A stretch of DNA of 52,461 bases from Bacteroidota bacterium (lineage in GTDB: Bacteria; Bacteroidota; Bacteroidia; Chitinophagales; LD1). The notes beneath the pieces were generated by a model, which saw nothing but the letters and a program-made list of their open reading frames with translations, had not been told where the DNA came from and did no database searches. The position numbers were made by a program, and so were the translations under genes. Positions 1 through 51,569 of the stretch are shown piece by piece. The number at the start of each line of letters is the position of its first letter. Position 1 is the first letter of the stretch. The stretch lies in assembly GCA_947478005.1 (NCBI GenBank), contig CANJVG010000012.1:1-52461 (forward strand), read 5' to 3'.

Positions 1-1536
1 CCCTTCCATTGCAGGAGCCACCGCAGCTATGGCAGGTACGTATACCGTGACTGCTACAGACGGTAATGGCTGTACTGCTACCGCTGCTACCACCGTTGTC
101 GTGAATGCACTGCCGATTCCTTCCGCTTCTAATACAGGACCTTATTGTGCAGGAGTTACCATCCAACTGAACTCTTCAGGTGGTACTTCGTACGCCTGGA
201 GCGGACCGAATGCTTATGCCAATGCCACTCAAAACCCTTCCATTGCAGGGGCCACCGCAGCTATGGCAGGAACTTACACCGTGACCGTAACCAATGCGGC
301 TTCCTGTACTGCTACTGCTGCTACTACAGTGGTTGTAAATGCACTGCCCGTGCCTTCTGCTTCCAACACCGGTCCTTATTGTGCAGGTACTGCCATCCAG
401 TTGAACTCTTCAGGAGGTACTTTGTACACCTGGAGCGGACCGAATGCTTTCGCTAATGCTACTCAAAACCCTGCCATTGCAGGGGCTACCGCAGCTATGG
501 CAGGTACGTATACTGTGACCGTAACCAATGCTGCTTCGTGCACCGCTACCGCTGCTACTACAGTAGTCGTGAACGCACTGCCGATTCCTTCCGCTTCCAA
601 TACCGGTCCTTATTGTGCAGGAGTGGCCATCCAACTGAACTCTTCAGGTGGTTCTTCGTACGCCTGGAGCGGACCTAATGCTTATGCCAATGCTACTCAA
701 AACCCTTCCATTGCAGGAGCCACCGCAGCTATGGCAGGTACGTATACCGTGACTGCTACAGACGGTAATGGCTGTACTGCTACCGCTGCTACCACCGTTG
801 TCGTGAATGCACTGCCGATTCCTTCCGCTTCTAACACCGGTCCTTATTGTGCAGGAGTTACCATCCAACTGAACTCTTCAGGTGGTACTTCGTACGCCTG
901 GAGCGGACCGAATGCTTATGCCAATGCCACTCAAAATCCTTCCATTGCAGGGGCTACTGCAGCTATGGCAGGGACGTATACCGTCACCGTAACTAGTGCC
1001 GCTTCGTGTACTGCTACCGCTGCTACTACTGTAGTCGTGAACGCCCTGCCCGTGCCTTCTGCTTCCAATACCGGTCCTTATTGTGCCGCTTCTTCTATTC
1101 AACTCAATGCAACAGGAGGTGTTTCCTACTCTTGGAACGGACCTGTTGCTTTTGCCAGTGCTTCTCAAAATCCAATCCGTGCAAACGCAACACTTGCCAT
1201 GGCAGGAACCTATACCATCACCGCTACAGATGCGAATGGTTGTTCCGCTACTGCTTCCACTATTGTAGTTATCAATTCTTCGCTCACGCCTGTCGCCTCT
1301 AACACCGGACCTTATTGTGCCGGTGCTACCGCGCAACTCAACGTAGCCGGTGGTACTACTTATACCTGGAGCGGACCTAATGCATTCGCAAGTCCTTCCC
1401 AAAATCCTGCTATCCCGAATGTCGCTACTTCTGTCAGCGGCACCTATACCGTGACCGCTACCGATGCTAACGGTTGTACCGCTACTGCTGCTACTACAGT
1501 GGCCGTAAACGCCCTGCCTATAGCAGATGCCGGTAC
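1..1536 (+). repeat. Tandem 234-bp coding repeats (at least 7 copies)
   Basis: The in-frame ATG-GCA-GG motif recurs at 29, 263, 497, 731, 965 and 1199, and its equivalent position at 1433, exactly 234 bp apart each time. Copies 1-5 differ by only a few scattered, mostly silent changes. Copies 6 and 7 are clearly diverged. The gradient from homogenised to diverged units is what recent unequal exchange or gene conversion in the N-terminal part would leave. The array continues past the left edge. Confidence 0.95.
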
Positions 1537-3187
1537 TGATGTAATGATAACCTGCTCTATATTACAACCAAGTTTAAATGGAGCTCCAATAAACCTTGGA
1601 GAGACCTATCTTTGGAGTGGCCCCGGAATAATAAGTGGTAGCTCAACTGCTACACCAACCGTAAATAGTAATGGGAACTATACTTTATTAGTAACCGATG
1701 CAAACAACTGTACAGCATTCGACAACACACTTGTAACCTCTAGTTTAAACGCACCGAACGCCAATGCAGGACCCGATGATATCCTCAACTGTTCTATTAC
1801 TTCTGTAACCTTAACTGCAAGTTCTACCACCCCGGGTGTTACCTTTGCCTGGAGCAATGGAATCAATATCGCTGCTAATACTGTAAGCATTGCCAATACT
1901 TATACCGTTACCGTTACTGACCCAAGTAATGGTTGTACCGCTTCCGACAATGCAGTCGTAACCTCGAACACTACTCCTCCTAATGCCAATGCAGGGCCTG
2001 ATGATTTGCTGACTTGTGCCATTACGTCCGTAACTCTGACTGCAAGTTCTACAACATCAGGCGTTAATTTTCTGTGGAGCAACGGAACTAACACAGCGAT
2101 TAATTCAGTGAGTGTGGTAAATACTTACACAGTGACCGTAACAGATATTGTAAATGGCTGCACCGCTGCTGACCAAGCCGTTGTAACCGCTGATCTAACT
2201 CCGCCTAATGCCAATGCAGGACTCGATAAAATAATTAGTTGCACGATGAACGGAATTAATCTTGATGGTTCATCCACCACAATCAATGCTATTTATCTTT
2301 GGAGCGGAATCGGTGTCATCAGTGGGGCAACTACAGCTTCGGCATTCGTAAATTTAGTAGGTACTTATACCCTCTTAGTAACTGACCCCGCAAACGGATG
2401 CACCGCCAGCGATACAACTAATGTTACTGACCCGAATGCCATGAACTTAAACACTGCCATCACAAATAACCCTTGTGCCCAATTGGCCATCGGAAGTATT
2501 GACTTGCAGGTAAATGGCGGTTATACACCTTATGCTTACCTTTGGAGCAATAGCGCGGTAACCGAAGATATTGGAAATCTGCATGGCGGACAATACAGCG
2601 TAACAGTGACTGACAGTATAGGATGCACCGTTTCTGATTCGTATACCATTACGGAAGGTGTTTTTCATGTAAATGCAGAGCACAGCACCACCATCAATTT
2701 AGGGGAAACCGTGCAATTAACTGGTAATACTATAGGCGGCAGTGGTCAGGAAACATATATCTGGTCACCCGATTATCATTTAACCTGCACCGATTGCACC
2801 AATCCGGTTTCGACTCCTTACACGGATATTATTTACGCATTGAAAGCCACTGATACAACAGGCTGCATTGATTATGACACCGTGAAGATCAATGTAATTC
2901 CGGTTCATGATATTTTCATACCAAACGTATTTACCCCTAACGGTGATGGCAACAACGACTACTTCGAAGTGTTTGGAAACAAGAAGGCCTGGAAACAATT
3001 TGAAGTACAGGTATTTAATCGTTGGGGAGAGAAGATGTATGACAGCAACGATATGAATTTTAAATGGGATGGTGTGTTTAAAAGCAACGATGCTCCTATG
3101 GCCGTTTATGTTTATCAGATATGGGTAGTTTATATGGACAATTACGTAGACCAGTTATACAAAGGAAGTGTAACCCTGGTTCGCTAA
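2..3187 (+). CDS. Giant surface adhesin, C-terminal part, T9SS type B sorting domain (5' end outside window)
   Basis: The reading frame is open from base 2, so the start lies upstream of the window. The visible ~1060 residues begin with seven 78-residue repeats (234 bp each, to about base 1530) with a TYTVT strand, a GNGC or AASC cysteine and a TGPYCAG cysteine. They are Ig/SprB-like beta repeats typical of Bacteroidota adhesins. More divergent ~72-residue repeats (NANAGPDD type) follow, then a SprB-like repeat near residues 810-880. The last ~90 residues, starting IFIPNVFTPNGDGNND and containing FNRWGEKMYDS, are the CHU_C/gliding-motility type B domain, which targets the protein for T9SS export and surface attachment. 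Function is probably adhesion or gliding; no catalytic domain is visible. The first repeats are nearly identical at DNA level, so copy number is prone to change and to assembly collapse. Confidence 0.9.
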   Translation, partial: PSIAGATAAMAGTYTVTATDGNGCTATAATTVVVNALPIPSASNTGPYCAGVTIQLNSSGGTSYAWSGPNAYANATQNPSIAGATAAMAGTYTVTVTNAASCTATAATTVVVNALPVPSASNTGPYCAGTAIQLNSSGGTLYTWSGPNAFANATQNPAIAGATAAMAGTYTVTVTNAASCTATAATTVVVNALPIPSASNTGPYCAGVAIQLNSSGGSSYAWSGPNAYANATQNPSIAGATAAMAGTYTVTATDGNGCTATAATTVVVNALPIPSASNTGPYCAGVTIQLNSSGGTSYAWSGPNAYANATQNPSIAGATAAMAGTYTVTVTSAASCTATAATTVVVNALPVPSASNTGPYCAASSIQLNATGGVSYSWNGPVAFASASQNPIRANATLAMAGTYTITATDANGCSATASTIVVINSSLTPVASNTGPYCAGATAQLNVAGGTTYTWSGPNAFASPSQNPAIPNVATSVSGTYTVTATDANGCTATAATTVAVNALPIADAGTDVMITCSILQPSLNGAPINLGETYLWSGPGIISGSSTATPTVNSNGNYTLLVTDANNCTAFDNTLVTSSLNAPNANAGPDDILNCSITSVTLTASSTTPGVTFAWSNGINIAANTVSIANTYTVTVTDPSNGCTASDNAVVTSNTTPPNANAGPDDLLTCAITSVTLTASSTTSGVNFLWSNGTNTAINSVSVVNTYTVTVTDIVNGCTAADQAVVTADLTPPNANAGLDKIISCTMNGINLDGSSTTINAIYLWSGIGVISGATTASAFVNLVGTYTLLVTDPANGCTASDTTNVTDPNAMNLNTAITNNPCAQLAIGSIDLQVNGGYTPYAYLWSNSAVTEDIGNLHGGQYSVTVTDSIGCTVSDSYTITEGVFHVNAEHSTTINLGETVQLTGNTIGGSGQETYIWSPDYHLTCTDCTNPVSTPYTDIIYALKATDTTGCIDYDTVKINVIPVHDIFIPNVFTPNGDGNNDYFEVFGNKKAWKQFEVQVFNRWGEKMYDSNDMNFKWDGVFKSNDAPMAVYVYQIWVVYMDNYVDQLYKGSVTLVR

Positions 3188-7077: not shown

Positions 7078-7084
7078 TGTCTTT

Positions 7085-7216
7085 CGTTTGTGGTTTGTCG
7101 TCTATCGTTTTTCGTTGGGCTAATTTTTTCGTTTCTCGTGTATCGTATTTCGTTGAGCTAAGTCATTACGTTTGTGGTTCGCCGTCTTTTATAGTTAACG
7201 AAAAACCACAAACGAT
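7085..7216. repeat. Word-chain spacer with CGTTTGTGG repeats and an inverted copy
   Basis: CGTTTGTGG starts at 7085 and 7169, with a variant CGTTTCTCG at 7130; TCGTTG plus GCTAA follows the first two. An inverted copy, AACCACAAACG (7204-7214), pairs with CGTTTGTGGTT (7169-7179) to give an 11-bp stem. The tract sits between the lyase start and the kinase stop, both on the minus strand. It does not have the 21-bp period seen elsewhere in the window. Confidence 0.75.
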
Positions 7217-7222
7217 AAACGA

Positions 7223-8788
7223 TTAATGATTTAGTTTAGCGTAGATAGGTTTGTTCTTCGTGTATATTTCTACAAAGCGATGGAACTTCTCATCATACAT
7301 GGCACGGTTAGCTTTGTTGGGTTGAAATGTTTTTTTCGGTTCCACTACTTTTGATACATCATCCATACTGATTCTGTTCAGCGCTAGTAATGCAAGAATT
7401 GCGGTGCCGCGTGAGTTAGCCATTAGTGGCTCGTTCATTTGCTTAATAGGTCGGTCGAAAATATCAGCCATAATCTGACTCCAAACATCACTATTGGCCC
7501 CTCCACCTATAAAGTTTACCGCTTCAAAATTCCTGCCCATCATCTTCTCGATATACATCAATAACCATCTTGCATTTAAACCAACTCCTTCCAATACCGC
7601 ACGCATAAAATGCGTACGGTTATGATTCAGCGACATATTGTAAAACCCACCTCTTGCACTATGGTCATCTACGGGACTTCTTTCGCCATATAACCAAGGA
7701 AGAAAATAAAGACCATCGGCACCTGCAGGAACTTTTGCTACAATGTTGTCGAGTAGTTTATAAAAATCCTTCGGTGCAGGTCCTGTTTTCAATTCATCGT
7801 TGTGGTACAACAAATTGTTTTTAATAAAGTTCAGACAGGCACCCGAAGTTTCCTGTTCGTTGGCAATTATATATCGACCGGGCAATGCAGATGGTATGGT
7901 GCCCATATTATGAAAGATGTCGGCCTTCTTAAAGGGAACATGCGCCACCAGCCATGAAGAGGTACCCACGTAAAGATGACCTTCAAAATCTTTTACAGCT
8001 CCCGAGCCCACCGCAGCACTGTGCATATCGGGAGTGCCGGCTATTACTTTCACATCCATGCTCAATCCAAACACATTTGCCGTTTCTTTTGAAATATTGC
8101 CAAGGACCGAATTTGTTTTTACTAAATCAGGCAATTTGGCTTTGTCAATTCCGCAAAGTTGAATTAAGCCATCGTGATACGTGATATTATTTATGTCGCG
8201 GTTGTCGGTTATCCAATGCACGGTGATAGAATCGAAAGAAGCCGCAAAGATACCAGTGAGCCATAGATTAAGATAGTCTTTCGGCTCGAGGAACTTATAA
8301 GTAGCCTCATAAATCTTTGGCAGTCGGTTCTTGATGTAGAGAATGTGTGCGATAGAATCTTTACCCGATTTGGTAGGTCCGCCACCGGTCAGGTTTATCC
8401 ATTTCAAAATCTTTCCAACCCCATATCCATCCACTCGTATAGGGCCATGCGTAAGTTTCTTTACATACTCTGCTCCTCTGGTGTCCATCCAGATTACGGA
8501 ATCCATCAGCGGCTTTCCTTCTTTATCTACACATACGGTTCCGCTCCATTGCGCGGTGCAGTTGATAGCGGAAATATCTTTGGTATTTACTTTTGTGTTG
8601 GTGATTAAACGCTGATAGCATTTGATGATAGCGTTTGTCCAATCGGCAGGTCTTTGTTCTGCTCCTCCGTTTTCGTAAAGCAACAAGGGGACTTCTTCAA
8701 ATTCATATCCAATACATTTTGCTGTTGAATCGAATAGCGCGACCTTGGGTCCTGAGGTGCCGAGGTCAATAGTTAGAATCAAGGACAT
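7223..8788 (-). CDS. FGGY-family carbohydrate kinase (xylulokinase-like)
   Basis: 521 residues, normal family length. The N-terminus LTIDLGTSGPKVALFD is the first phosphate-binding loop of the actin-like fold. AQWSGTVCVD and WMDTRG lie in the sugar-binding domain. GTPDMHSAAVGSGAV holds the catalytic aspartate, and NFIGGGANSDVWSQIMAD is the C-terminal ATP-binding block. Xylulokinase, which makes xylulose 5-phosphate for the pentose phosphate pathway, is the best guess, but substrate identity within FGGY kinases cannot be read from motifs alone. No sugar isomerase or transporter is adjacent, so the neighbourhood does not help. Same strand as the lyase downstream (145 bp) and the monooxygenase upstream (70 bp). 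Confidence 0.8.
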   Translation of the reverse strand: MSLILTIDLGTSGPKVALFDSTAKCIGYEFEEVPLLLYENGGAEQRPADWTNAIIKCYQRLITNTKVNTKDISAINCTAQWSGTVCVDKEGKPLMDSVIWMDTRGAEYVKKLTHGPIRVDGYGVGKILKWINLTGGGPTKSGKDSIAHILYIKNRLPKIYEATYKFLEPKDYLNLWLTGIFAASFDSITVHWITDNRDINNITYHDGLIQLCGIDKAKLPDLVKTNSVLGNISKETANVFGLSMDVKVIAGTPDMHSAAVGSGAVKDFEGHLYVGTSSWLVAHVPFKKADIFHNMGTIPSALPGRYIIANEQETSGACLNFIKNNLLYHNDELKTGPAPKDFYKLLDNIVAKVPAGADGLYFLPWLYGERSPVDDHSARGGFYNMSLNHNRTHFMRAVLEGVGLNARWLLMYIEKMMGRNFEAVNFIGGGANSDVWSQIMADIFDRPIKQMNEPLMANSRGTAILALLALNRISMDDVSKVVEPKKTFQPNKANRAMYDEKFHRFVEIYTKNKPIYAKLNH

Positions 8789-9964: not shown

Positions 9965-10112
9965 GTTATAATTCGAATCAGACAAGAAATAATTCGAGAT
10001 TTTTCCTAAAAACCGGGACCCAAGAGTGTTACATCCTCTTTCACGACAACTACATGCGAATTCTTGAGGATCATGCGTAGATTCATGACAACTACATGTG
10101 AATTCACGAGGT
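9965..10112. repeat. 21-bp-period dyad array, family 1 (GAATTC-centred core)
   Basis: Dyad centres fall at about 9974 (ATTCGAAT), 9995 (AATTCGAG), 10018 (GGGACCC), 10039, 10060 (GCGAATTCTTG), 10081 (TAGATTCATGA) and 10102 (GTGAATTCAC), i.e. spaced 21-22 bp. The stretches starting at 10041 and 10083 are 24/28 identical and exactly 42 bp (two units) apart. It lies upstream of the nitronate monooxygenase. The outer units are weak; the block 10031-10112 is clear. Confidence 0.6.
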
Positions 10113-10313: not shown

Positions 10314-10502
10314 TCAAACGTCCCTCAAAAGCTCTACTAAGCTTCGTAAACTCCATTTGAACCTTCGTAAAACCAATTTGAGTATTCAAATTGTGCGTAT
10401 GAATACTCGTAGAGAGAATTTGAATATTCAAACGCAGTCTATGATCTTCAAATGATTTTTGTCGGAATTCAGTATGCCAGGCTTGGATGAATCCAATCGG
10501 GA
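10314..10502. repeat. 21-bp-period dyad array, family 2 (TTTGAATATTCAAA core)
   Basis: Eight dyad-symmetric cores have centres at 10341, 10362, 10383, 10404, 10425, 10446, 10467 and 10489 (spacing 21 six times, then 22), with a weak ninth at 10320. Examples are TACTAAGCTTCGTA, TTTGAACCTTCGTA, TTTGAGTATTCAAA, TATGAATACTCGTA and the perfect palindrome TTTGAATATTCAAA at 10419-10432. A reading frame is open on the minus strand only because 21 is a multiple of three; it has no ATG. The array ends about 100 bp before the ATG at 10603. Confidence 0.75.
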
Positions 10503-19905: not shown

Positions 19906-20301
19906 ATGCAAGGTGAATTTTTAAATACGCTCAACAACTGGCAGCCTGAAATTGAACTGACCGTGAAAGCACGCTTTATTCAAAAGGGAACCGACTCGGC
20001 ACTAACGGGTGAAGAATATACCGCGCGGCTCTACGACAAAGATTTGTTTACCGATGATGATTATCTCGGTCATGCTCCTTTGAACGAAAACGGTGAGGCG
20101 CATATTCATTTCTTCCCGACTGATATCGAGAACCATGATTTAGGATTTGAGCAACTGCCCGATTTGTATATCCTGCTGTTCAAATGCGACACCGTTCACT
20201 TCCAAACCAAGGTTTGGCACAATGTTGATTTCAGCAAGCTGGCTAAGCTCGATATGAATGAAGGCGAGGTGCTGGATTTCGGAACGTTTTTGGTAGATTA
20301 A
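19906..20301 (+). CDS. Small acidic hypothetical protein (131 aa), possibly C2-like
   Basis: 131 residues with no signal peptide or membrane segment. The pattern TVKARFIQKG...YTARLYDKDLFTDDDYLGHAPLN...AHIHFFP alternates strands with an Asp-rich loop (DKDLFTDDD), reminiscent of C2 beta sandwiches that bind calcium or phospholipid. This is a resemblance only. A clear hairpin terminator follows at 20316-20361. It is 57 bp downstream of proS, likely in the same transcript. Confidence 0.7.
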   Translation: MQGEFLNTLNNWQPEIELTVKARFIQKGTDSALTGEEYTARLYDKDLFTDDDYLGHAPLNENGEAHIHFFPTDIENHDLGFEQLPDLYILLFKCDTVHFQTKVWHNVDFSKLAKLDMNEGEVLDFGTFLVD

Positions 20302-20315
20302 AATAGAAAAACTAT

Positions 20316-20361
20316 AAAACAGAAACAGTCCCGACAAATTTGCCGGGACTGTTTCTGTTTT
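20316..20361 (+). terminator. Strong hairpin terminator, 18-bp perfect stem
   Basis: AAAACAGAAACAGTCCCG (20316-20333) pairs exactly with 20344-20361 around a 10-nt loop. The 3' arm ends CTGTTTT, and the 5' arm begins with AAAA, so it can serve both strands. It closes the proS transcript. Confidence 0.85.
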
Positions 20362-20388
20362 AAGCCTGGATAAACCTTACGTTGTGCA

Positions 20389-20723
20389 TTACAAGAAAAA
20401 ACCGTAGCTACTCAAGAAAAATCTTGTGCCCAACAAGTTAAGCCAGAAGAAAATTAGGTGTTCTGGTTCAATTTCCTCGAGGAAGTTGGCGAGAACCTAG
20501 AGGAAATTGCCAATAAGCAAGAGGAAACTACCAATTCCCTCTTGGAAACTATCAAGAACCAAGAGGAAGTTGACGATTTCCTAGAGCAAGTTGCGACTTC
20601 CTCTAGGAAATTGACGAGAAGGAAGAGGAAATTACTGATTTCCTCTAGGAAGTTGTCGATATCCTCTAGGAAATTCAGAAGAACTTAGAGGTAATTGCCG
20701 AAAGCTAAGAGGAAATTTTATGA
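20389..20723. repeat. 21-bp-period dyad array, family 3 (TTCCTCTAGGAA core)
   Basis: Twelve units start at 20473, 20494, 20515, 20535, 20557, 20578, 20598, 20619, 20640, 20661, 20682 and 20703 (steps 21,21,20,22,21,20,21,21,21,21,21). Each has a 12-bp core around TTCCTCTAGGAA, either dyad-symmetric (the perfect TTCCTCGAGGAA at 20473; TTCCTCTAGGAA at 20598 and 20640) or with the left half replaced (AACCTAGAGGAA, AACCAAGAGGAA). A 9-bp linker like RTTGMCRAN follows. Three weaker units continue leftwards, with CAAGAAAAA at 20392 and 20413 and CAAGTTAAG at 20434, again 21 bp apart. A GTG-initiated frame reads through but the core itself contains TAG and the other units are frame-shifted. Confidence 0.85.
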
Positions 20724-21034: not shown

Positions 21035-22603
21035 CTATGCCGAGAGACTTAGGTGCTCTGATATATCTTGAAATGTCAATAAATCAGATTTAAGGGGGAA
21101 GTCAGTCCGGTACTGACAACCCCTGCTTTCTTCTCGTAACAATGACCCACGCACTATCATTAAAGATGTCTCAATCAGATTCAGCAATTCATTTGAAGCA
21201 ACAGAATTGCCATACAAAGAAATTTTAGAACTTAACTTTTGATGCAATTGCTTTAGCTCATCATGGCAATAATTCAACTCAGTTCCATTCCTGACAATCC
21301 CGGCAAATCGCCACATTAGCTGCTGAAGGTAGCTCTTTATGTAAGCTAAATTTACATCTTCCTCCAAATCCAGAGCAACAAAATATAGAGGATGCAATAA
21401 ATGACTGTTAGATTCCAAACGAGATTTGGTATCCACCGCAGCATTTTCTGCAAATACTAATCCTTCCAAAAGCGAGTTACTGGCCAAACGATTAGCACCA
21501 TGAACACCAGTGCATGACACTTCTCCGCAAGCATAGAGGTTTCCAATTGAAGTTCTTCCATTTAAATCTGTCACCACTCCTCCACACATATAATGTGCTG
21601 CCGGCACCACAGGAATCATAGTCCTGACTATATCTATTCCAGCATCTTTGCACCGGCTGTAAATAGTTGGGAAATGCGTTTGGATCTCTGTTTTATTAAA
21701 GCCGGTTACATCCAGATAAACACATGGAACGTTTCTCTTTTCCATTTCATTCACAATAGCCCTGCTCACCACATCCCGCGGTGCAAGCGATTTCAGGGGA
21801 TGATACTTTTCCATAAACGTTTCTCCATTTTCATTTTTCAACTCTGCACCGAAGCCTCTAAGCGCTTCTGTTATAAGAAAGACCGGATTACTCGGGCCAT
21901 ACAATGTAGTAGGGTGAAACTGAACAAATTCCATGTTCGATATAACTGCACCTGCTCTATGCGCCATGGCAAAGCCATCACCCGTTGCAATAGAAGGATT
22001 AGTATTCATTTCATACACCTGCCCTGCACCACCACTGGCCAACATCACCACTTTGGCATGAATCTGCAAAGCCTCTAAAGCACTCTTTTCGATTGCAATA
22101 GCGCCCGTGCAAGTGTTGTCATTTACGCATAAATCAATGGCGAAACAGCCTTCCAGAATAGTAATATTCGGTATGGCTCGTACCTGTTTAACTAAAGCAG
22201 TTTCAACCTCTTTACCAGTTGCATCGGTTGAATGAACTACACGAGCATGCGAATGGCCGCCTTCTCTATGTAAGTCAAAACTACCCGACAGCCTTTTATC
22301 AAAATCCACCCTTAGTGCATCTAATTCTAAAATGACCCTCCTGGCGTTCTGAACAATTTGATGCACCGCTTCTTCGTTACACAAATCATCTCCCGCTACC
22401 AGGGTGTCACGAATATGGTTTTCAATGGAATCAGCCATATCAAATACTGCCGCAATCCCCCCCTGAGCATACATCGTGTTTGATTCACCTATAGTGCCCT
22501 TTGTAATAATGGTTACACGAGCAAACTGCGCGCAGTGGATAGAGTAAAACAAACCTGCTATTCCGCTGCCAATAACCAGCACTTCTGTTTCATATTGTTT
22601 CAT
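21035..22603 (-). CDS. nadB: L-aspartate oxidase NadB
   Basis: 522 residues. The FAD-binding Rossmann loop GSGIAG is at 12-17, with TIITKG and the family block SNTMYAQGGIAAVFD next. HREGGHSHARVVH carries substrate-binding histidine and arginine residues, and CGEVSCTGVHGANRLASNSLLEGLVF is the second FAD block. It oxidises L-aspartate to iminoaspartate, which NadA condenses with dihydroxyacetone phosphate to quinolinate in de novo NAD synthesis. The start overlaps the nadA stop by 4 bp (ATGA), so translation is coupled. nadC is not in the window. Confidence 0.95.
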   Translation of the reverse strand: MKQYETEVLVIGSGIAGLFYSIHCAQFARVTIITKGTIGESNTMYAQGGIAAVFDMADSIENHIRDTLVAGDDLCNEEAVHQIVQNARRVILELDALRVDFDKRLSGSFDLHREGGHSHARVVHSTDATGKEVETALVKQVRAIPNITILEGCFAIDLCVNDNTCTGAIAIEKSALEALQIHAKVVMLASGGAGQVYEMNTNPSIATGDGFAMAHRAGAVISNMEFVQFHPTTLYGPSNPVFLITEALRGFGAELKNENGETFMEKYHPLKSLAPRDVVSRAIVNEMEKRNVPCVYLDVTGFNKTEIQTHFPTIYSRCKDAGIDIVRTMIPVVPAAHYMCGGVVTDLNGRTSIGNLYACGEVSCTGVHGANRLASNSLLEGLVFAENAAVDTKSRLESNSHLLHPLYFVALDLEEDVNLAYIKSYLQQLMWRFAGIVRNGTELNYCHDELKQLHQKLSSKISLYGNSVASNELLNLIETSLMIVRGSLLREESRGCQYRTDFPLKSDLLTFQDISEHLSLSA

Positions 22604-32227: not shown

Positions 32228-32397
32228 AAAGGGGGAATCACAGAAGACACTGAGGGAATACAAACGAGGACACAGAGAAAAATCGGAAAGGTATTCCTTC
32301 GTGTTCTTTACGGTCTGTTTCTTCGTGTTCTTTGCGTGAAATTGATTTTGCTTTTGGCTGTTCCACTTTTAGCTTTTGACTTTTAGCTTTGAACTTA
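32228..32397. repeat. Word-chain spacer (CACAGAG, CTTCGTGTTCTTT, ACTTTTAGCTTT)
   Basis: CTTCGTGTTCTTT occurs at 32297-32309 and 32321-32333; ACTTTTAGCTTT at 32365-32376 and 32379-32390; upstream are ACACTGAGG, GAGGACACAGAG words. It separates two minus-strand T9SS genes. The first words are partly complementary to each other (CACGAAG-type versus CTTCGTG). Confidence 0.7.
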
Positions 32398-33937: not shown

Positions 33938-34077
33938 TCCATCAAACGTAAGCAAAAAACATGGGGGAGTCATAAAAAGGATATACAAACCGTACTTTTT
34001 TCGAAATTAACTATAAGTTTCTTCATTTCACTCCATCTTCATTTAAGTTAACTCGGACAGTCGGCTCACAACCCTGA

Positions 34078-34308
34078 TTTCTAATTACTTCTGCTCGGTT
34101 GCTAAACAACAATCCTCGATTGCTAAGCAACATTCATCAATTGCTAAGCAACATTCATCAATTGTTAGCTAACAAAGCCGGATTGTTAAGCAACAATGCT
34201 CAATTGTTATTTAGCAAAGGCCGATTAATAAACAACAATGCCAGATTGTTACTTAGCAAAGGTCAATTGATAAGCAACAATTGCTGATTGTTAACTAGCA
34301 ATCCTTCT
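34078..34308. repeat. 21-bp-period dyad array, family 4 (TTGCTAAGCAA core)
   Basis: Ten units start at 34099, 34120, 34141, 34162, 34183, 34204, 34225, 34246, 34267 and 34288, every step exactly 21 bp. A weaker unit precedes at 34078. The core is TTGYTAAGCAAC (TTG half-site, CAA half-site), including the perfect palindrome TTGTTAGCTAACAA at 34162-34175; units at 34120 and 34141 are identical over all 21 bp. Linkers are variable (consensus AATNCYCRA). A plus-strand frame reads as Leu-Leu heptads (LLSNIHQ) with no ATG and a TGA inside the array. The array lies between the aroC stop and the promoter region of the minus-strand gene at 33937. Confidence 0.9.
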
Positions 34309-34516
34309 GTTACAGTTTGTCCCATACAAGTTATTTTTTGAGGAGCTCAAGTATTTTCTTGTTTCGAACAATAACTCATTGTATCTAATAAATAATTGAA
34401 CCTATTTTTAGCTTTTTAACGTATGGGTATCCTATCCATCAATCTAAGCAGGAAAGAAGTCAGCGAGTTGCGCCTGATAGGCTCAAATTTGTTGCAGAAA
34501 GATTTAGGAAATCAGT
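34309..34516. other. Remaining spacer between the array and aroC
   Basis: AT-rich sequence with no repeat I can define. An ATG at 34423 opens a 54-codon plus-strand frame (MGILSINLSRKEVSELRLIG start) that runs antisense into the aroC 3' end and stops at 34587. Its first 30 residues look protein-like, but the rest is antisense to aroC, so it may be a vestige. No promoter or terminator recognised. Confidence 0.4.
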
Positions 34517-51494: not shown

Positions 51495-51569
51495 GCCGCG
51501 TTCGTATAACGGTTAGTACGCCTCCCTTTCACGGAGGTAATAGGGGTTCGATTCCCCTACGCGGTACCA
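51495..51569 (+). tRNA. tRNA-Glu (TTC anticodon), CCA encoded
   Basis: Full cloverleaf: acceptor GCCGCGT pairs with ACGCGGT (one G-U pair), D-loop TATAACGGTTAGTA, anticodon stem CCTCC/GGAGG with loop CTTTCAC and anticodon TTC, T-arm AGGGGTTCGATTCCCCT, discriminator A and an encoded CCA at 51567-51569. The U34 wobble base is a predicted substrate of MnmA (15390-16493). Confidence 0.97.

Follow-up and report, generated by a model that had tools for sequence, protein, structure and literature searches.

Tandem DNA sites spaced by about two turns of the helix are familiar from plasmid iterons and ParR centromeres, which consist of tandem sites of approximately 20–22 bp that are bound side by side, each system using one word and lying beside its own rep or par gene. 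Dispersed intergenic palindromes are likewise familiar, from the REP/BIME clusters and their RAYT transposases. To our knowledge, BIMEs share one or a few common words and have no fixed 21-bp beat, and all known bacterial nucleoid sites are defined by a sequence word. In the Bacteroidota, BrickBuilt of Porphyromonas gingivalis is described as a minisatellite-MITE with a single 23-nt repeat, present in 19 copies, 4 of which have both terminal inverted repeats intact (PMC4596501). The arrays described here resemble BrickBuilt in being intergenic repeats of Bacteroidota in which a leader precedes short tandem units, each close to two helix turns long, and in their predicted stem-loops and frequent translational stops; they differ in having many words, a period of 21 bp and no terminal inverted repeats that could be found (PMC4596501). 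The present arrays are, in addition, evenly spaced.

The stretch of DNA analysed, termed here the window, comprises 52,461 nucleotides of contig CANJVG010000012.1 from a Bacteroidota bacterium of the order Chitinophagales. It carries, on the plus strand at 20471–20721, an array of 12 units such as ATTTCCTCGAGGAAGTTGGCG, starting at 20471, 20492, 20513, 20534, 20555, 20576, 20596, 20617, 20638, 20659, 20680 and 20701; ten steps are of 21 bp and one of 20 bp, and refits agree. Self-match of the array is 0.576 at lag 21, 0.524 at lag 42 and 0.567 at lag 63, whereas in 2000 dinucleotide shuffles the lag-21 value had a mean of 0.263 and a maximum of 0.367, and the best of 75 lags did not exceed 0.415. 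The initial annotation had proposed 12 units with steps of 21 bp apart from one longer and two shorter by a base. The number of units and the 21-bp rule were confirmed, with a single exceptional step in the register of the right half, of 20 bp (20576 to 20596); the supposed pair of 20 and then 22 bp is better read as a unit with an extra C in its left half (TTCCCTC), which leaves the register unshifted. Full dyads and half-replaced cores do coexist, as had been noticed, and the right half GAGGAA is the better kept (pairs matched out of seven, unit by unit: 6, 3, 2, 4, 2, 4, 5, 0, 5, 5, 3 and 1), which would fit stronger binding at one half-site. The units are imperfect and contiguous rather than identical repeats with unrelated spacers, which rules out a CRISPR array.

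The host spacer lies between a gene of 131 aa (19906–20301), which follows proS and has no Pfam match, and nadB (21035–22603, minus strand), with nadA also close by. No cognate rep or par gene adjoins the array among these neighbours (proS, the unnamed gene, nadB and nadA), and in this, as in words that differ from array to array, the arrays are unlike iterons and ParR centromeres. A hairpin at 20315–20362, whose 24-nt arms have 96% complementarity, immediately precedes the leader; it is terminator-like on the minus strand only and was kept apart from the array.

The leader (20390–20476, plus strand), as delimited by a gapless alignment of six copies, consists of three CAAG units and a spacer up to the first array unit. 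The CAAG starts (20392, 20413 and 20434) are exact 21-bp steps, which upholds the spacing of the three leftward units first described with another core, although the third reads CAAGTTAAG and not CAAGAAAAA. The distance from leader to first unit is constant in the six copies, which carry two different array words (87 columns, no gap). A leader model (R1) was built from these copies, so that its match at 20390–20476 holds by construction; a copy outside the model-building set was found on the minus strand at 34295–34362 (E = 4.6e-10), directly adjoining the second array of the window, which has a third word. Fixed distance in six copies and a seventh beside a third word support the earlier idea of two families joined in phase, and at least one subfamily can be recognized in the sequence as a leader followed by in-phase arrays with a changing word. 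At least seven leaders were found in the genome at E < 1e-4 (150 of 1201 candidates scored). No such leader was seen at the other 29 of the 36 arrays compared, among which one pair has a weak mutual flank match. Weaker leader matches were seen at C114 (E = 0.006), where inspection of 800 bp revealed no array, and in four other genomes (E = 0.005–0.009).

Three further copies of the window array are present in the same genome (C69, C19 and C46; 83, 82 and 74% identity), and homology of the four TTCCTC copies ends, by eye, at the last unit, with no tail beyond it. Families of two to four similar arrays exist among the 36 compared. The second window array (34076–34306) is also similar to those at C6 and C8. 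Closely similar 207-aa proteins (L014:4984–5607 and L015:9690–10313) adjoin the C69 and C19 copies; both genes lie approximately 210 bp from the leader and point away from it, with an fn3 match below the Pfam cut-off (checked for the L014 protein). Secreted-protein genes that resemble each other are found near the C8 array, at 0.3 kb, and the C1 array, at 1.4 kb.

The window array is a member of a genome-wide set and not isolated. The genome to which the window belongs was sampled over 906,812 bases, 23% of its total, and 37 of the 271 intergenic segments of at least 100 bp in this sample were periodic at z ≥ 5.5, with lags of 42 (22 segments), 21 (nine), 41 (four), 44 (one) and 8 (one). A gene-blind scan (lags 5–60, threshold z 7.5) gave 48 peaks, of which 43 lay outside ORFs of at least 200 aa and five inside; every one of the 43 had a period of 42, 21, 41 or 44 (33, six, three and one, respectively), while those inside long ORFs had lags of 42 (three times), 18 and 60. 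Altogether, the sampled 907 kb holds 56 arrays of 6–22 units, which extrapolates by simple proportion to approximately 250 in the whole genome. Their 612 fitted steps comprise 569 of 21 bp, 24 of 20, 18 of 22 and one of 19 (mean 20.99); as the fit permits only 19–23 and arrays were chosen by lag, it is the lag counts that provide unbiased evidence. Units match one another at 0.55–0.89 in the best 84-bp window of each array. Periods of 41 and alternating steps of 20 and 21 bp fit helical phasing (approximately 10.3–10.5 bp per turn) and not codons.

Two more members of the set lie in the window: the second array (34076–34306, minus strand; word TTGTTA..TAGCAA, period 21/42, a later refit starting at 34064) and a third, of six units at 10339–10464, which is dyadic (p = 0.001). 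The second array and its leader (34076–34362, minus strand) are upstream of a secreted-protein gene. The divergent spacer that holds the third also has a 21-bp repeat of CATGCGAATTC-like words at 10040–10106, reported by TRF only, and other spacers have short repeats of period 7 or 14 (7084–7116, 7197–7223 and 32346–32396), 7 being one-third of 21. At the very start of the contig (1–1410), long tandem repeats of 234/468 bp lie inside a large ORF (29–3187).

Each of the 56 arrays, or small family of arrays, has its own word. That of the window array is TTCCTC.GAGGAA (20471–20721), that of C6 and C8 GATTTAT..ATAAATC, and others include TATTC..GAATA, TCTCA..TGAGA and, in species G016, AACC..GGTT. 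No word is common to all of the 36 arrays compared, so they cannot all be recognized, in the ordinary manner, by a single sequence-specific protein. Dyad symmetry is more general: it was significant by column permutation (p < 0.05) in 22 of those 36 arrays and in 33 of the 52 arrays with at least seven units (four six-unit arrays of the 56 being left out), the remaining 19 having no significant dyad by this test. The set is like REP/BIME sequences in consisting of dispersed intergenic palindromes in a genome with Y1-transposase matches, and unlike them in its changing words and 21-bp beat. The alternation of symmetric and half-replaced units first noticed in the window is not strict there; it is a genome-wide tendency, since across the 33 dyadic arrays strong and weak palindromes alternate (lag-1 autocorrelation −0.20 versus −0.09 ± 0.05, a value that none of 300 shuffles matched; P = 0.033 at lag 2).

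Within the sample, the arrays are evenly spaced along the chromosome. Distances between neighbours on the same contig (n = 37) have a mean of 14.0 kb and a CV of 0.44, against 0.72 ± 0.08 for random placement in non-coding segments, which was as even in 0 of 2000 trials; only two spacings fell below 5 kb, with 8.6 expected. Three other nulls (unweighted, and segments of at least 100 or 400 bp) again gave 0 of 2000. The result held for the z 7.5 arrays only (P = 0.001) and in both halves of the data (contigs C1–C7, 0 of 2000; remaining contigs, P = 0.0085). Array counts per stretch were under-dispersed (chi-squared of 3.94 on 19 degrees of freedom; lower tail 9.5e-5), with small values among the expected counts. 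The sample consists of the longest contigs of a draft genome; clustered repeats may be under-represented on such contigs, and this could contribute to the evenness. The genes flanking the 37 periodic segments are tandem in 20 cases, convergent in eight, divergent in eight and at an edge in one, compared with 148, 45, 63 and 15 for all 271 segments. Compared in this way, without a formal test, there is no visible orientation preference, and nothing in the counts points to a promoter or terminator position for the arrays.

Absence of the pattern from closely related strains had been named beforehand as a point against it, and the outcome is divided. When 59 relatives, including 17 of the same genus, were searched with the window array as DNA, its exact words gave no match at E ≤ 1e-3 (at most 11 candidates scored per genome); 21-bp arrays with other words, on the other hand, are present in the genus. 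The same scan was applied to 14 other species of the genus, with 8–118 kb from each and approximately 759 kb in all, of which about 10 kb reads N. Five of these species (G001, G004, G005, G016 and G017) yielded eight sites outside long ORFs, all at lag 21, 41 or 42, and a further eight sites lay inside long ORFs, at other lags. A segment of G012 (L180; lag 21, z 6.0) was left out of the count, being presumably an ATP synthase c-subunit gene. With 43 sites in 907 kb here versus eight in the 14 species, the set is much sparser in the genus, and the samples of G007 (118 kb) and G009 (80 kb) had no array sites; an even 14-kb spacing therefore cannot be genus-wide. Further afield, other genera of the family, sampled by five stretches (90 kb), gave one site outside long ORFs (lag 9) and one inside (lag 45), and other families of the order, sampled by 16 stretches (187 kb), gave no periodic sites. 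Among 80 nadB loci from many phyla (840 kb), one of which (L072) is probably from the same genus as the window, there were seven sites outside long ORFs, at lags 8, 11, 11, 12, 16, 41 and 47, and two inside; an earlier scan of 258 intergenic segments from these loci had found 14 at z ≥ 6 with scattered lags.

Synteny around the window array is poorly kept. The flanking proteins are 59–77% identical in same-genus genomes and are encoded on different contigs, as are nadB and the 131-aa gene in all seven other genomes in which both were found. No more than 150 bp separate the 131-aa gene from the gene that follows it in G016 and in G007. G001 has an array with other words approximately 1.5 kb downstream of the 131-aa gene, past one further gene; with synteny otherwise lost, we did not accept it as an orthologue of the window array.

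We tentatively favour the view that these are helically phased protein-docking arrays, perhaps with a role in organizing the chromosome. Non-coding intergenic units of 21 bp, often paired into 42 bp, would be stacked in phase with two turns of the helix; DNA-binding proteins might sit on them as dimers, side by side along one helix face, and the arrays would then be docking platforms that recur every ~14 kb along the chromosome. Protein binding, selection on phasing and the chromosome-organizing role are the parts of this scheme that we infer. It is preferred, as the docking arrays of a nucleoid or segregation system, because it best joins the period, the dyads, the changing words, the lack of a coding signal and the even spacing. 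Points that weigh against it are the lack of a common word, the 19 of 52 arrays without a significant dyad, the unraised 10.5-bp harmonic of A/T content, a spacing result drawn from the longest contigs of a draft genome, and the much sparser set in the rest of the genus.

The strongest rival, somewhat unlikely in our judgement, is that the arrays are dispersed selfish or MITE-like minisatellites: leader-bearing elements copied into intergenic DNA, whose units drift and whose 21-bp beat comes from the copying machinery. A leader with tandem repeats in seven copies resembles BrickBuilt (PMC4596501), small families of two to four similar arrays occur among the 36 compared, and the genome has five Y1_Tnp matches, two of them over nearly the whole model. 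Terminal inverted repeats are nevertheless missing from the six copies (the longest exact inverted match near the ends is 6–8 bp, at no fixed place), and the leader model recovers seven leaders at E < 1e-4 among the 150 candidates scored. Some copies may instead be explained by duplication along with genes, as for C69 and C19 with their fn3-like neighbours and C8 and C1 with their secreted-protein genes, and selfish insertion would not be expected to produce even spacing unless target immunity acts. The two views are compatible: an element could have been the source of docking arrays, with the spacing arising from selection or from target immunity.

A mutational by-product is less probable again. 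An enzyme of the lineage would make 21- or 42-bp tandem duplications of local DNA, which then decay without function; this would account for a period that stays constant while the words differ between arrays, and for the confinement of 21-bp arrays to one lineage in our samples. Neutral decay, however, would be expected to leave more indels than the 43 off-beat steps among 612 seen in arrays whose units have diverged to a match of 0.55–0.89, even though the fit itself also disfavours indels, and plain duplication gives direct repeats rather than dyads with alternation or even spacing.

It is improbable that the arrays are transcribed as structured RNAs of repeated hairpins. Seven arrays are oriented by the fixed leader, and their predicted folding is strong on either strand (−50 to −103 kcal/mol over 231–273 nt, without a shuffle comparison). 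In the leader orientation, however, broken pairs in these seven are G-T in 30 cases and A-C in 54, with no sign of kept G-U pairs; the lean favours the other strand, the cells not being independent. The arrays of the window match no Rfam family at gathering score, the only known RNA there being a tRNA at 51495–51566, and RNA hairpins would not need a 21-bp beat.

One heptad of a coiled-coil protein takes seven codons, or 21 bp, and genes for such proteins, living or decayed, also had to be weighed. The initial annotation had named a decayed gene as the competing explanation, and a coiled-coil-like frame, FLEEVGENLEEIANKQEE, can indeed be read in the array; the four TTCCTC copies share, with variants, the frame ..SCAQQVK.EE...FGLNFLEE.., and the sample contains 22 short ORFs, of 91–258 aa, that are protein readings of arrays. 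Each of the four TTCCTC copies is nonetheless broken by in-frame stops or frame shifts. Differences between the six copy pairs do not favour the third codon position (17/17/9, 23/12/13, 26/20/21, 20/19/18, 20/23/25 and 24/19/26 for positions 1/2/3), and variability by codon position reached p < 0.05 in one of 41 arrays (the remaining 15 of the 56 were left out because they had other steps or not enough units). An open frame is present in 24 of the 56 arrays, fewer than the 33 that column shuffles predict, the period of 41 in some arrays does not suit codons, and a search of 59 relatives with the 75-aa translation of the window array gave no match at E ≤ 0.001. We reject a coiled-coil gene, living or decayed, as very improbable, on the grounds of the stops, the codon positions and the number of open frames. 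The 22 short ORFs (L034–L053 and L152–L171), with repeats of 7 or 14 residues such as NIITIASIVTISL, correspond to arrays of period 21, 41 or 42, and such array-derived ORFs may be called as genes by annotation pipelines. Bending by A/T content was dismissed, as the 10.5-bp harmonic is not raised: with ten harmonics summing to 1, its share is 0.104, as for chance. For A-tracts the share is 0.18, the highest of the ten, which leans towards bending, a figure without a null.

We found no report, in the open-access literature, of dispersed repeats that keep a strict two-turn period while their words change; most subscription papers and all bioRxiv preprints lie outside that literature, and the one near case within it is PMC4596501 and not PMC4060949. 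Even if the arrays are selfish, such a class is apparently unreported. Taken as docking arrays, they hint at an undescribed mode of chromosome organization. It is possible, though rather doubtful, that this species, with thinner equivalents elsewhere in the genus, has a chromosome-organizing system of approximately 250 helically phased docking arrays, one per ~14 kb, which would function by the 21-bp beat and local palindromes and not by any one sequence, the words diverging freely while phase and spacing are kept. If that is true, the conservation of period and spacing under changing words would amount to another kind of code, read through shape or phase, and nucleoid organization in the Bacteroidota would become directly testable by occupancy mapping and Hi-C.
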